Below the pieces are notes generated by a model. It was not told where the DNA came from, searched no databases, and was given only the letters and a program-made list of their open reading frames with translations. Positions 11,330-52,492 of a stretch of 52,928 bases of DNA are shown piece by piece. Made by a program: the position numbers and the translations under genes. Source of the stretch: Bacillota bacterium (GTDB lineage Bacteria; Bacillota; Sulfobacillia; JAJZYS01; JAJYTV01); the NCBI GenBank assembly GCA_021793215.1, contig JAJYTE010000016.1, forward strand, positions 1 through 52,928. Reading direction: 5' to 3'. The first letter of the stretch is position 1, and each line of letters opens with the position of its first letter.

Positions 11330-11437
11330 CGCACGGCGAGCGGAGTCCGACGACCTGGGGGTCGCTGTTCGCCCTGGGCCAGAACCTCATCCGAGTCGTC
11401 GTACTGCACCGGGATCCAGATGGTAATATGGAATCGT

Positions 11438-11525
11438 CTTCGCTAGGGGAGCCAACTTTGGCTGAGAGGCGCTTTAGGCGCCGACCCTTCGAACCTGATC
11501 TGGGTCATACCAGCGTAGGGAAGCG
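11438..11525 (+). promoter_or_regulatory. TPP riboswitch (THI box)
   Basis: The conserved THI-box blocks appear in order: AGGGGAGCC then GGCTGAGAGG, CGACCCTTCGAACCTGATC, and the closing TGGGTCATACCAGCGTAGGGAAG. The P1 ends CTTC and GAAG can pair. It binds thiamine diphosphate and here precedes a terminator and four thiamine genes, so high TPP should reduce transcription of the operon. Confidence 0.95.
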
Positions 11526-11543
11526 GCAGTCAGCAGGCCAGAG

Positions 11544-11581
11544 AGCCGCTGCCCTTCGACGGGTGGCGGCTTCGCTTTTTT
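11544..11581 (+). terminator. Riboswitch-controlled intrinsic terminator
   Basis: AGCCGCTGCCC pairs with GGGTGGCGGCT (with G-U pairs) around a TTCGAC loop and is followed by TTCGCTTTTTT. It lies between the TPP aptamer and the first start codon, so it is the natural expression platform. Confidence 0.88.
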
Positions 11582-47277: not shown

Positions 47278-48432
47278 TCAGAACCAGGTACGCCACCAGT
47301 TCTTCTCGAAAGCCACCTTCGCGACATGCCAGTGGCGACCCGTGCGGAACATCTTCACCTCGGGAGCAGGCTCCGCGTAGAAGTTCCCGCGCGCGAATCC
47401 GGCAGCGCCAGATCCCATCTCGATGAAGCACTCGCCGTTACCTGTGAAGCGACCCTCTTCTCCCTTGCCCGTCCACCTCGTCGCGATCGTCCTCGCCACC
47501 GCTTCCGCCTGCGCATGGGCGAATACCCCCGCTTTGGGGAGCGGCTTCCCCATCGGGAGCATCACACCCGTCACGTCCCCGATCGCGAAGACGTTCTCGA
47601 AAGGCGTTTCGCAGGTCTCACGGTCGATCTGCACCCATCCCCCGGGCGCTGCGAGCCCTGCCTCCTGCACGACAGCCGGCGGCGCATGCGGCGGGACGAC
47701 AGCCAGCACGTCGTAGGAGACTTCGTCCCCGCCCTCAAAGTGCAGCCGCTTGCCTGGCGCATCCACCCGCGCGATCTGGCGGCTCGGGTGGTAGGCGATG
47801 CCGCGATCCGCGACCAGATCTTTTACCCCCTGCGAAACTGCCGGACCCGCAACCCCCATCGGGGCAGGCTCAGCGGCCCAGACTTCCACCTCCACCCGTT
47901 CGCGCACACGGCGCTTCCTCAGGAGATGGTCGATCAGCATGGCGGCCTCGTAGGGGGCAGCCGGACACTTGAACGGTACACCCGCGATCAGGACGACAAC
48001 GCGTCCCTCACGCAAGGACTGGAGGTCCTCGTAGAGCTGCGCAGCGCCCTCCACCGTGTAGAAATTGTGTCCAGCCTCGGCGAGTCCGGGGATCCGCTCG
48101 GGGACGAGTTCCGCCCCGAGGGCGACAACCAGTGCGTCACCCTGCACCGAGTCATCTCCCGTGTACACGGTGCGGGTGGTCGAATCGATCCTCGTTACCT
48201 CGCGCTTCAGCACGTTGATGCCGGGCTCCTTCAGGGCGGCGATGTCGCGCTGCACATCTTGCGCGTTCCGCGTACCGGTCATCAGCCAGAGCAGGGACGG
48301 CCAGAACACGTGCCGCCCCGAGCGTTCAATCAGGACAACGCGATCCTGCTTGGGAAGGAGCCGCCGCAGGTTACTCGCTGCAACAACACCGCCCACTCCG
48401 CCACCAAGCACGATGGCTGTCTTCCCGGACAT
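47278..48432 (-). CDS. Sulfide:quinone oxidoreductase-like flavoprotein
   Basis: The 384-residue two-dinucleotide-binding flavoprotein starts with VLGGGVGGVVAASNLRRLL and has PFKCPAAPYEAAMLIDHLL (C156) and the FAD-binding VFAIGDVTGVMLPMGKPLPKAGVFAHAQAEAVA. These are SQR/FCSD-family features. SQR oxidises sulfide and reduces quinone at the membrane. Fewer redox cysteines than the classical three are visible, so a related persulfide or NADH dehydrogenase role is possible. ATG 48432 has an AAGGGGGGG site; it follows the dsrE-like gene by 33 bases. Confidence 0.87.
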   Translation of the reverse strand: MSGKTAIVLGGGVGGVVAASNLRRLLPKQDRVVLIERSGRHVFWPSLLWLMTGTRNAQDVQRDIAALKEPGINVLKREVTRIDSTTRTVYTGDDSVQGDALVVALGAELVPERIPGLAEAGHNFYTVEGAAQLYEDLQSLREGRVVVLIAGVPFKCPAAPYEAAMLIDHLLRKRRVRERVEVEVWAAEPAPMGVAGPAVSQGVKDLVADRGIAYHPSRQIARVDAPGKRLHFEGGDEVSYDVLAVVPPHAPPAVVQEAGLAAPGGWVQIDRETCETPFENVFAIGDVTGVMLPMGKPLPKAGVFAHAQAEAVARTIATRWTGKGEEGRFTGNGECFIEMGSGAAGFARGNFYAEPAPEVKMFRTGRHWHVAKVAFEKNWWRTWF

Positions 48433-48465: not shown

Positions 48466-48816
48466 CTAGTAGACGATCACCTTGTCCGCCCAGAGCGTCC
48501 ACTCCGTCAGTTCCTCCATGGAACTTCGGTGGATGCCCTCGATCATTTCGGCCTCGGCTAGACCTCTGGCGTCGAGGCACGTGCCGCAGGCGCCGATCTC
48601 AGCTCCCCGGCGGATGGCGGCGCCGAGCATGCGTTCCAGGAGATAGTAGCCGTTGGGTACCTTCTGGCCCTTCTTTCCAGCCGCTGTGGCGTCGGCCATC
48701 AGGAAGACCCGCACCCGGATGTCTTCTTTCGAGGCGAGCGCGACGGCATGCCGCATGCCGTTGTAGGTTCGCTCGGTGCCGTAAGGCGGGTCATTCAGGA
48801 TCAAGAGGACGTTCAT
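48466..48816 (-). CDS. DsrE-family sulfur-relay protein
   Basis: The 116-residue protein begins MNVLLILNDPPYGTERTYNG, matching DsrE/YchN-like folds, and has cysteines at ACGTCLDARGL that would carry persulfide. ATG 48816 is the homology-supported start; an in-frame ATG at 48870 is longer but unlike the family. It forms an operon with the SQR-like gene. Proximity to selD and a cysteine desulfurase also suits a sulfur or selenium carrier. Confidence 0.87.
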   Translation of the reverse strand: MNVLLILNDPPYGTERTYNGMRHAVALASKEDIRVRVFLMADATAAGKKGQKVPNGYYLLERMLGAAIRRGAEIGACGTCLDARGLAEAEMIEGIHRSSMEELTEWTLWADKVIVY

Positions 48817-49192
48817 CTCGACCAACCTTTCGTTCGCGATCCTGGGCCTGGGGTTTTCGCATTCTGCCATGAGCTTGCCGGCGTTACGGTGACTTCACGA
48901 CGACTGTGCCATACATGCCCTGCTGCGCAGTGCCTCAGAGCGGGTTACACGCGGAACTGGCGCCCCCGAGAGAACCGTCCCTATCATCCGGCCCATCGCG
49001 TCGGCTCCGGCGAAAGGGCCGCTAGCCCTCATGCCGTACGGCCCGCATGAACGGGAGTGGCCAGATCGTGGTACGGGAACGACCGGTGACCCCAACCAGG
49101 AGCATGACCAAACCGAGCCATGCGCGGTTGCGGATCCTGTTCACCCCCTTTCAAGCCTTCACCGCAACGTGCCCGATCTCCGCAGCTCATCC
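48817..49192. other. Intergenic region between the DsrE and cysteine desulfurase genes
   Basis: A 376-base gap. On the minus strand, 49144-49022 encodes a 40-residue product with one hydrophobic stretch (WLGLVMLLVGVTG), but its GTG abuts the AAAGGGGG site without spacing, so it may be a decayed membrane-protein fragment. No tRNA, terminator or riboswitch was recognised. Confidence 0.4.
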
Positions 49193-50335
49193 CTATCGCT
49201 TGCGCAGCCTGTGAACTCCTCGCACGAGGTCGCGCGCGGCCTCGTCCACCTCCGCCTCTGCGGTGTAGCGTCCAAGGCTTAGCCGGACGGCGCCGAGCGC
49301 GACATCCGTGCTGAGTCCCATCTGCGCGAGCACCGGGGACGGGGCAGTACTGCCCGCGTGGCACGCGGAGCCTGTGGAGAAGGCTACCTCCGGCACCGCG
49401 TCGAGGAGATCGCTGCCGATCAACCCTTGGAAGCTCAGGTTGAGCGTGTTGGGAAGGCGCGCGTCGGGATGCCCGTTGAGGTGCACCCCCTCGAGCCCTT
49501 CGGCCAGAAAGCTTTGCAGGCGGTCACGCAGCCAGCGCTGACGCTTCCCCTCCTCAAGCAGGAGGTCGGCCGCGACCGCGCAGGCTTCGCCGAGCGCGAC
49601 CATGTAGGGGACGTTCTCCGTACCCGCCCGCAGCCCGCGCTCCTGACCGCCGCCGAGGATGATCGGCTGGAGTTCGATGCTCCCTCGTACGTAGAGGGCG
49701 CCGATCCCCTTCGGGGCATAAACCTTGTGGCCGGCGATCGTGAGGAGATCGATGCCCAGGTCCCCCACCCGCGTTGGGATCTTCCCCACCGACTGAGAGG
49801 CGTCGGTGTGGAAAGGAGTCCCCGCCTCGCGTGCGATGTCGCCAATCTCCTCGATCGGCTGGATTGTGCCCGTCTCGTTGTTGGCGTGCATGATGCTGAT
49901 GAGCAGCGTGTCGGGACGGATCGCTCGCCGCACCGCCTCCGGGTCGACTCTGCCATGCCCGTCGACAGTGACGTAGGTCACTTCGAATCCGTGCTGTTCC
50001 GCGAGATACCTGCAGGTGTTGAGCACCGCCGGGTGCTCGATGGTCGACGTGACGATGTGCCGCCCGCGCGTACGGTTTGCGAAGGCGATGCCCTGGATTG
50101 CGAGGTTGTCGCTCTCGCTACCGCCGCTCGTGAAGACGACTTCCTCCGGTGCGCATCCGAGGAGGTCCGCGACCTGGCGGCGGGCGCGTTCCACCGCGGT
50201 CCAGGCTGGGCGGCCGAACACATGGGTGCTGGACGGATTGCCGAACTGATCGCCGAGGTACGGCAGCATCGCCGCCCGCACGCGCGGGTCGATCGGCGTC
50301 GTCGCGTTGTAGTCGAGGTAGATCGGGACCTGCAT
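49193..50335 (-). CDS. Cysteine desulfurase (NifS/IscS type)
   Basis: The 380-residue PLP enzyme transfers sulfur from cysteine to an active-site cysteine. PIYLDYNATTPIDP, HANNETG, the PLP lysine K204 in AGHKVYAPKG and catalytic C325 in STGSACHAGSTAPSPVL are visible. ATG 50335 follows GGAGGTGAAAGC. It lies 45 bases after selD on the same strand, so it probably supplies selenium to SelD or serves a shared Se/S pathway (inference). Confidence 0.93.
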   Translation of the reverse strand: MQVPIYLDYNATTPIDPRVRAAMLPYLGDQFGNPSSTHVFGRPAWTAVERARRQVADLLGCAPEEVVFTSGGSESDNLAIQGIAFANRTRGRHIVTSTIEHPAVLNTCRYLAEQHGFEVTYVTVDGHGRVDPEAVRRAIRPDTLLISIMHANNETGTIQPIEEIGDIAREAGTPFHTDASQSVGKIPTRVGDLGIDLLTIAGHKVYAPKGIGALYVRGSIELQPIILGGGQERGLRAGTENVPYMVALGEACAVAADLLLEEGKRQRWLRDRLQSFLAEGLEGVHLNGHPDARLPNTLNLSFQGLIGSDLLDAVPEVAFSTGSACHAGSTAPSPVLAQMGLSTDVALGAVRLSLGRYTAEAEVDEAARDLVRGVHRLRKR

Positions 50336-50380
50336 GCTTTCACCTCCGTTGCGCTCAAACTTGTGTTCGGACGTGACGCA

Positions 50381-51427
50381 TCAGTCCGCAAGCACGGTGA
50401 TGTGGCCCGCGTCTCCCGCCTCCAAGTACCCGATCTCTGCCCAGGTGTGGCACCCCTCCTCTTGCAGGGCGGCGCTGAGCGCGTCTCTCTTCTCCTGCGC
50501 GACTGCGATCAGGAGTCCGCCGGAGGTCTGGGCGTCGGAGAGCAGAACCCGATCTTCGCTTGGGGTCTCCTCCGGCCAGTCCACCCACCGCTGCAAGTGG
50601 CGCAGATTGTTCTGGGTGCCCGTCGAGATGGCGCGTGCCGCGAACCGCTCCGCGGCCGGAAGAATCGGGACGGCGGGCAAGCGCACGCGCGCGCTGAGAC
50701 CGCTCTTCCAGGTCAGCTCATGCAGATGGCCGAGGAGGCCGAATCCCGTGACGTCCGTGCAGGCATGGGCTCCGACGCGCTCGATCGCGCGGGCGGCGCC
50801 CCTGTTGAGCTGAAGCATCACCGGCAGCACCAGAGCCTCAAGGTCTACGCTTGCAAGGCGCTGATCGAGTGCTGTGGTCAGCACGCCGACCCCCAGCGGC
50901 TTCGTCACGAAGAGGGCGTCCCCTGGCTTTCCGCCCGACTTGCGGATCAGCCGATCCGGGTGGACGAATCCGGTGACAGCCATCCCATACTTCGGCCCCG
51001 GATCGTCGATCGTGTGTCCGCCGGCGATGTCGACTCCAGCCTCGCGGGCCTTGTCCGCACCTCCTCGCAGGATCTCGGAGAGATACCCGAGCGGCAGGCT
51101 GCGCACGGGGAAGCCGACGAGGTTCAGGGCGAAGGACGGCTTCGCGCCAACTGCATAGATGTCGCTCAGCGCGTTGGCCGCAGCCACCTGACCGAAGAGA
51201 TAGGGATCGTTGAGCACCGGCGTGATGTAATCGACCGTCTGTACAAGGGCAAGGTCGTCAGAGAGCTTGCGGCAGGCGACGTCGTCACCGATGCTCGCAA
51301 GCCATGCGGGGTCCTTGGGAGGCGAAAGGTGGCGCAGGACCTGCGCCAGGTCGCGCGGGCCGACCTTACAGGCTCAGCCGGAGCCAGGTGAGTAGGAAGT
51401 AAGTCGAATCTCGGGAGGAACTCCCAC
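50381..51427 (-). CDS. selD: Selenide, water dikinase, selenocysteine-containing
   Basis: SelD makes selenophosphate from selenide and ATP. The frame reads from GTG 51427 through an in-frame TGA at 51376-51374 (codon 18) to the stop at 50381, giving 348 residues, the usual SelD length. The upstream part encodes IRLTSYSPGSG-Sec-ACKVGPRDL, matching the conserved N-terminal active site in which Cys or Sec precedes the Gly/Ala-Cys-Lys motif; GDDVA, QTVDYITPVLNDPY and ALSDIYAVGAKP follow. GGAGG lies eight bases before the GTG. A gene caller using the standard code would start at 51217 and lose about 70 residues including the active site. This implies that selA, selB and selC exist elsewhere. Confidence 0.92.
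51340..51372 (-). promoter_or_regulatory. Candidate bacterial SECIS element in selD
   Basis: Just after the TGA, AGGTCG and CGACCT form a six-pair stem around a seven-base loop (51366-51348), extended by CCTG/CAGG across an internal loop. Position and size suit a SelB-binding SECIS hairpin. Confidence 0.6.
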
Positions 51428-51489
51428 GCCGGGCACCTCCGTATGCGGTGGTTGATTGGCGCGAGTGTACCCCAAACGGTACTATGATG

Positions 51490-51515
51490 ACGGTGCAACC
51501 ATTGCATAGCACCGT
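51490..51515. promoter_or_regulatory. Palindromic LysR-type operator between selD and lysR
   Basis: ACGGTGC and GCACCGT are perfect inverted arms, with a nested TGCAA-CCA-TTGCA inside (51494-51506) that fits the T-N11-A LysR motif. It lies in the divergent region 45 bases before the regulator start and about 65 bases from the selD start. A TATGAT at 51483-51488 could be a -10 box for the regulator. Confidence 0.65.
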
Positions 51516-51559
51516 TGCGCGCGTCGCATGGCACACTTCAGCATTCAGGGGGGAGTCGT

Positions 51560-52492
51560 CTGGATCTCTACCAGCTCAAGACGTTTGCGGCGGCCGCGGA
51601 CGCTCGTAGTTTCTCCGGTGCCGCGCGCCGGCTTTCTCTGAGTCAGTCCGCCGTGTCGCGGCAGATCGAGGCGTTGGAGGAATCATTCGGGCTTCCGCTT
51701 TTCACGCGCGGACGTCGCACGGCCGAGTTGACGGAAGCTGGAGAGCGCCTCCTCGTCTATGCGCAAGCTATTCTCGCGCAGGCGGACGAGGCGCGGGAGG
51801 CGCTACGCGAGCTGCGAGAACTCGAAGCCGGGGAGCTCGTTCTCGCTGCGACGACCACGCCGGCCCGGTATCTCGTGGCGCCAACCATGGTTCAGTTCTC
51901 CAGCGAACACCCTCGAGTCGCATTGCGTCTGGTCATCGGGGACCAGAATGAGATCGCGGCTGCGCTTTCCGATGGCAGGGCGCACCTAGCGGTGATCAGC
52001 GGTCCAGGCACTCCAGAGCAGCACCTCTTCCTTGAGCCTTGCATGGGTGACCGACTGGTGCTCATTGCCCCTGCGGGCCACCCGTGGATCGCTCGGCGCA
52101 GCGTCGAACCTCGCGACCTTCTCCGTGAGCGCCTGATCGTCCCGGCCATTGGCGGGTGCGAACGCGCCGCAGTCGACGCATTTCTCGAACTGCATGGCCT
52201 CACGGAGGGGCTCAGGATGTGGGAACTCGACGATACGGAGGCGATCAAACAGGCAGTGGCGGCCGGTGGTGGACTTGCATTCCTATCTGAACTCGCGGTG
52301 GAAGCCGAGGAACGCGTCGGCCTGATCGCGCGAGTCCAAGGTGCTGACCTTGAGATCTCCCGCCAGTTCTACCTCGCGTATAGCAAGGCGCACCACCAGT
52401 CGCCGGCAGCGCTCTCGTTCGCGTCACTTGTCCGCAAGTCGAGGACGAGAATCCCCTCCCAGCTCGGGAGGGTTTGGACAGAGCGGGAATAG
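51560..52492 (+). CDS. LysR-family transcriptional regulator
   Basis: A 310-residue LTTR. The N-terminal winged HTH reads DLYQLKTFAAAADARSFSGAARRLSLSQSAVSRQIEALE; an effector-binding domain follows from about residue 88 (GELVLAATTTPARYL). The CTG at 51560 gives the normal family start MDLYQLKTF and lies four bases after GGGGGGAG; the alternative TTG at 51515 adds 15 unrelated residues and overlaps the operator. Divergent placement suggests it regulates itself and the selD-desulfurase genes (inference). Confidence 0.9.
   Translation: MDLYQLKTFAAAADARSFSGAARRLSLSQSAVSRQIEALEESFGLPLFTRGRRTAELTEAGERLLVYAQAILAQADEAREALRELRELEAGELVLAATTTPARYLVAPTMVQFSSEHPRVALRLVIGDQNEIAAALSDGRAHLAVISGPGTPEQHLFLEPCMGDRLVLIAPAGHPWIARRSVEPRDLLRERLIVPAIGGCERAAVDAFLELHGLTEGLRMWELDDTEAIKQAVAAGGGLAFLSELAVEAEERVGLIARVQGADLEISRQFYLAYSKAHHQSPAALSFASLVRKSRTRIPSQLGRVWTERE

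Follow-up and report, generated by a model that had tools for sequence, protein, structure and literature searches.

Two questions were raised by the selD locus of a 52,928-nucleotide stretch of DNA from a member of the Bacillota (contig JAJYTE010000016.1 of assembly GCA_021793215.1; the whole stretch is referred to below as the window): whether an in-frame TGA close to the 5' end of the gene is read as selenocysteine (Sec), and what part the encoded protein would play in its organism. Sec-containing SelD is a well-known arrangement, SelD being surpassed in distribution by only one other selenoprotein family of prokaryotes, and gene finders take its UGA codon as a stop.

The selD frame and its in-frame TGA

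Under the standard code (translation table 11), the selD open reading frame (ORF) started only at GTG 51217 and encoded 278 residues, which meant that the active-site loop was lost. Translation of the minus strand from 51427 to 50384 in a single frame yielded VGVPPEIRLTSYSPGSG-U-ACKVGP..., a product of 348 residues interrupted by one TGA, at codon 18 (Table 1). The nearest in-frame stop upstream of GTG 51427 was TAG 51484, and the two closest relatives had a GTG start codon at the same position. A 677-aa ORF on the plus strand (49358-51391), opposite selD and nifS, ranked above the true genes when ORFs were called simply by GC3; it was rejected as a real gene and is probably a GC-rich shadow ORF. 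Elsewhere in the window, a thiamine pyrophosphate (TPP) riboswitch (RF00059; 80.6 bits) was detected at 11435-11538 of the plus strand, upstream of an ORF at 11580.

Table 1. Coordinates of the selD gene, its signals and its neighbors in the window
Feature	Position	Strand	Basis or remarks
FAD/NAD(P) oxidoreductase, sulfide:quinone reductase (SQR) type	47278-48432	-	Pyr_redox_2, 91.8; FCSD_central, 41.6
DsrE-family protein	48466-48816	-	PF02635, 74.9 bits
Decayed sulfocyanin-like cupredoxin gene remnant, between nifS and dsrE	48931-49194	-	Broken frames
NifS/IscS-type cysteine desulfurase adjoining selD	49193-50335	-	Active-site loop STGSACHAG
selD (selenide, water dikinase)	50381-51427	-	348 aa; Sec at codon 18; start GTG; stop TGA
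Predicted bacterial SECIS hairpin	51330-51348	-	8-bp stem; 3-nt loop, G first; overlaps LAQVLR codons
In-frame TGA read as Sec, catalytic position	51374-51376	-	Alignment to E. coli C17; kept in relatives
Shine-Dalgarno sequence GGAGGT	51435-51440	-	Sequence; 7 nt before GTG 51427
Divergent LysR-family regulator	51515-52492	+	Best model NF040786 (selenium metabolism-associated LysR)

The full-length protein scored 350.7 bits against the curated model TIGR00476 (cut-off, 125) and 314.5 bits against PRK00943 (cut-off, 299), and E. coli SelD (3u0o) matched it with an E value of 7e-71. U18 was aligned with C17 of the E. coli enzyme (SPGSG-U-ACKVGP versus SHGAG-C-GCKISP), and the catalytic Sec/Cys-x-x-Lys motif was present as U18-A-C-K21 on C17-G-C-K20. 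In the homologues compared, this position was occupied by either Sec or Cys. SelD needs Asp residues and an Asn (PMC4210487); D49, D66, N85, D89 and D225, which we assigned as metal/ATP-binding positions, were invariant among nine SelDs. These results bore out the original prediction of an active-site region lying 5' of the standard frame and joined to it without a frameshift through the TGA, together with the predicted total length, the ribosome-binding site ahead of GTG 51427 and the resemblance to SelD on both sides of the TGA.

The TGA was retained in G001 and G004, relatives whose selD genes exhibited 89 to 90% identity. Comparison of the genome containing the window (G000) with G001 detected seven differences in the 17 codons 5' of the TGA, all of which were silent third-position changes, while the differences over the whole gene numbered 26, 20 and 125 at the first, second and third codon positions, respectively. 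This third-position bias is a mark of translation on either side of the TGA. When relatives were checked for a true stop followed by a start farther downstream, TGA or Cys was found instead. A survey of the class covered 136 genomes, 97 of which had a SelD at an E value below 1e-45, giving 112 copies. Exactly one in-frame TGA was present in 110 of the 112, its location at the catalytic codon having been seen in the copies that were fetched and aligned and the TGA being simply counted in the others. A relative of the window SelD with 57% identity (L185; G084:C132:27228-28250), located beside LysR and NifS genes, had no in-frame TGA, probably due to a Sec-to-Cys change.

The hairpin after the TGA and the Sec machinery

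The predicted hairpin (UGGCGCAGGUCCUGCGCCA, 51348-51330) has its loop 33 nt 3' of the UGA, and the fold of its 17-nt core had an energy of -11.3 kcal/mol (z, -3.45). The published model of the bacterial SECIS (bSECIS) calls for a loop of 3 to 9 nt with a G in the first two positions, a stem of 4 to 16 bp, a location 16 to 37 nt from the UGA and a minimum free energy of at most -7.5 kcal/mol (PMC13188914), and the window hairpin lies within all four of these constraints. No SECIS match was obtained at the hairpin with Rfam, even at a loose threshold. When the window selD gene was considered by itself, this hairpin was not reached in any of 200 codon shuffles; a stricter control, in which synonymous codons were redrawn according to the codon usage of the gene, gave a P value of 0.074, and hence the hairpin taken singly is a suggestive SECIS signal. 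The strong evidence came from the set of relatives rather than from the window gene alone. The median P value in the synonymous control was 0.026 for 103 SelDs with a TGA and 0.40 for 18 SelDs with Cys, such hairpins being far commoner after TGA-containing SelDs (Mann-Whitney P value of 2e-8, which overstates independence because the SelD sequences are related, although the contrast is large all the same).

The genome is represented by 87 contigs (2.74 Mb; 97.7% complete), and selA, selB and tRNA-Sec were all detected above their cut-offs. The selA gene (C69:7759-9081) scored 524.8 bits (cut-off, 267.9), selB (C12:74646) scored 330.5 bits when counted with its neighbor (cut-off, 242.25), and tRNA-Sec (C12:1693) scored 69.3 bits (cut-off, 47), with a TCA anticodon according to ARAGORN. 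A family search for in-frame TGAs in other genes, which covered FdhA and SelD, detected one in the formate dehydrogenase alpha chain (L158; C32:9669-11540), which is likely to be a further selenoprotein. A piece matching the first 50 positions of the FdhA model was present downstream of L158, at C32:13947-14102. Neither mnmH (ybbB; selenouridine synthase) nor yqeC (a marker of Se-Mo hydroxylases) was found in the genome, leaving Sec, by way of Sec-tRNA, as the sole selenophosphate sink present among those tested.

The original prediction that this SelD is itself a selenoprotein whose true N terminus is hidden by a TGA was thus upheld by the position of the TGA on catalytic C17, the Sec machinery and the conservation of the TGA. 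A hairpin of SECIS size does follow the TGA, as anticipated, and the search for selA, selB and tRNA-Sec that had been proposed found all three in the same genome. Two points required amendment. The interval suggested for the hairpin scan, 51340-51380, cuts off the 3' arm of the predicted hairpin. Likewise, the statement that the organism uses selenocysteine holds by virtue of the full machinery and the TGA-containing formate dehydrogenase, while SelD by itself does not prove it.

Three other accounts of the TGA were weighed against this reading. A standard-code ORF caller yields the 278-aa ORF, as expected if the TGA were a true stop and the working protein started at GTG 51217, or if the gene were a pseudogene. 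This shorter form is without the catalytic loop and Lys21, the silent third-position changes indicate that the 17 codons 5' of the TGA evolve as coding sequence, which argues strongly against a stop, the TGA is conserved at the same codon in distant relatives, and the Sec machinery is present; we regard a true stop as very improbable. Even less credence is given to a sequencing or assembly error for TGC or TGT. The window is one contig of a fragmented assembly and some SelDs do have Cys at this position, but the same TGA occurs in the two relatives at 89 to 90% identity, in a second SelD copy of the genome and in almost all copies of the class. Reassignment of TGA throughout the genome, for example to Trp or Gly, could also leave one in-frame TGA open. 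As TGA terminates 20 of the 48 mechanically called ORFs of the window, there is no wholesale reassignment; TGA also terminates selD itself, the tRNA with the TCA anticodon is tRNA-Sec by its model, and the homologues compared have Cys or Sec at this position, so that reassignment appears as remote as an error. The window selD very probably encodes a selenocysteine-containing selenophosphate synthetase (probability of approximately 0.96), and a Sec-containing SelD of this type is of an ordinary, already known kind. In comparison with the Sec-SelD/SPS2 family, the window SelD has the same family membership, Sec position and type of SECIS after the UGA, and nothing essential differs, except that it is the second, diverged copy in one genome.

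A second Sec-SelD and the neighborhood of the window copy

Beyond the single SelD considered in the original prediction, the genome was found to contain a further selD with an in-frame TGA directly 3' of selA (L128; C69:9176-10102). The two proteins were 44% identical. A maximum-likelihood tree built from 121 SelDs placed the window copy among the eight members of one clade (SH-aLRT, 99) and the family's selA-linked copy in a different clade (SH-aLRT, 100), indicating that the two SelDs are not the product of a recent duplication. The second SelD has a SECIS-like hairpin that is placed differently, with its loop 20 nt after the UGA. At least two SelDs were present in 14 of the 97 SelD-bearing genomes of the class, and at least two with a TGA in 12 of the 97. 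Binning contamination was rejected as the source of the pair, as G132, a chromosome in one contig, has two TGA-containing selD genes and the sister genome G001 has the same SelD pair as the genome examined here. A bacterium with two Sec-SelDs was not described in the literature covered by a narrow search. The closest likeness is Photobacterium profundum, which has two selD genes, one of which adjoins selA; one encodes Sec and the other Cys, and the Cys copy adjoins ybbB, which is linked to selenouridine (PMC1273633). In the genome examined here, by contrast, both SelDs contain Sec and no ybbB/mnmH was found. As mnmH and yqeC are lacking, a function of the second SelD in selenouridine synthesis or for Se-dependent Mo hydroxylases was discounted.

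Nearly every genome carrying a window-type SelD also keeps another SelD, and these genomes include a chromosome in one contig. G004 is an exception, with the window-type SelD alone having been seen and selA being represented only by a fragment at a contig edge. A split between housekeeping and specialized SelDs is hence not universal. The selA-linked SelD is probably the housekeeping enzyme.

The genes around the window selD were compared with curated models and with those of relatives. The desulfurase scored 470.7 bits against TIGR03402, below the cut-off of 530.75, and 261.8 bits against Aminotran_5. The start of dsrE was placed according to relatives, whose proteins begin with MNVLLILND, while the ORF finder had placed it at 48870. 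The cupredoxin remnant, which no longer has its frame or the greater part of its 3' half, was 75% identical to L154 over 266 nt and 72% identical to L049; relatives have the gene in intact form (214 aa in L153/L049; also L154), and an intact relative matches SoxE (PF06525). The LysR regulator scored 197.9 bits against NF040786, under the cut-off of 250, and its relatives scored 179.9 to 225.2. The SQR-like flavoprotein matched TIGR03169 ("Nterm_to_SelD") weakly (71.6 bits; cut-off, 310), and by this similarity appears to be related to the domain that is N-terminal to SelD in fusion proteins. Against NF049943 (SQR_III_seleno) it scored 227.6, far below the cut-off of 525; its 384-residue ORF, which covers positions 2 to 385 of the 406-position model, is a complete frame containing no in-frame TGA, and the possibility that it is a selenoprotein was therefore rejected.

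The extent to which this neighborhood is shared was examined in 15 window-type copies that were at least approximately 56% identical to the window SelD. LysR was adjacent in 14 of the 15, a DsrE gene was near in 11, a NifS-type desulfurase was beside selD in 8, and an SQR-like flavoprotein was near in 7 or 8. The gene order varied: DsrE and the flavoprotein follow nifS in the window lineage and are found on the LysR side in G083, G086, G085 and G082. Retention of linkage despite this reshuffling argues for a functional tie. The LysR/DsrE/NifS/flavoprotein set was absent beside the selA-linked L128 and beside the SelDs L179 and L156. Runs of two or three consecutive DsrE-family genes (DsrEFH/TusBCD-like) were observed beside LysR-selD in G077 and G132 (L180:6588-7757 and L178:6311-7061).

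Parts of this arrangement have precedents. SelD fusions with NifS and with an NADH-dehydrogenase-like protein are known (PMC4561486); the same two partner types lie beside the window SelD, and the sub-cut-off match of the flavoprotein to TIGR03169 fits these fusions. The window differs in having separate genes, clustered with LysR and DsrE, and in its SelD keeping Sec, while the fusions nearly always have Cys (PMC4561486). LysR_Se and YedF (SirA-DsrE) are known as selenium-linked genes (PMC5322559), and the window selD likewise has a selenium-type LysR and a DsrE-domain protein as neighbors, although the window DsrE stands alone without a SirA domain and the window LysR scores under the NF040786 cut-off.

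Possible role of the window selD cluster

From the sequence and the gene neighborhood, we infer the following mechanism. At the UGA of codon 18, SelB would deliver Sec-tRNA-Sec (anticodon UCA), with the hairpin just 3' of the UGA directing Sec insertion. Sec18 and Lys21 would then form the catalytic loop in which selenide and ATP are converted to selenophosphate. NifS may act on selenocysteine to free selenium (or on cysteine to free sulfur), DsrE may relay the selenium, the flavoprotein may set its redox state, and SelD would activate it, with LysR controlling the selD cluster. The neighborhood and the known fusions suggest, as the likeliest role though at a little under even odds, that the cluster is a regulated selenium-supply unit. 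Our proposal for the clade as a whole is a tentative one: its members may be a second, specialized Sec-SelD that has LysR, DsrE, NifS and the SQR-like flavoprotein as a selenium-delivery module and that is set apart from the selA-linked housekeeping Sec-SelD.

Two alternatives concern this role and leave the identity of the protein as it stands. The window SelD may be a redundant copy, acquired horizontally or by duplication, with incidental neighbors. Its distribution in the family is sporadic (G000, G001 and G004 have it, whereas searches of G002, G003, G006, G007 and G009 did not detect it) and two-SelD genomes exist outside the window clade (G005 and G032), both of which would be expected of such a copy; the near-constant adjacency of LysR, the recurrence of DsrE, NifS and the flavoprotein in varied orders across families, and the retention of another SelD by almost all carriers are not, and we consider redundancy plausible but on the doubtful side. 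A role in making thiophosphate, or in sulfur metabolism otherwise, has been proposed for archaeal SelD-like proteins (PMC4210487) and would suit the sulfur-type neighbors of the window gene (DsrE, SQR-like, NifS and sulfocyanin). Those archaeal proteins have only a distant relationship to SelD, whereas the window protein is a true SelD by the curated model, keeps Sec rather than Cys and has a LysR neighbor closest to the selenium-linked family, making a sulfur role improbable.

For the selD gene itself, these results correct an annotation in which the standard code strips the enzyme of its catalytic loop; as the feature is of a known kind, it is the putatively specialized second Sec-SelD cluster that is of interest to specialists. 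A 2026 review described the in vivo selenium donor of SelD and its delivery system as incompletely elucidated (PMC13188914), and the conserved cluster of a Sec-SelD with a desulfurase, DsrE and a flavoprotein provides specific candidates for this question, in genomes already equipped with a housekeeping Sec-SelD. If the proposed specialization is correct, the presence of two Sec-SelDs per genome would represent a division of labor.
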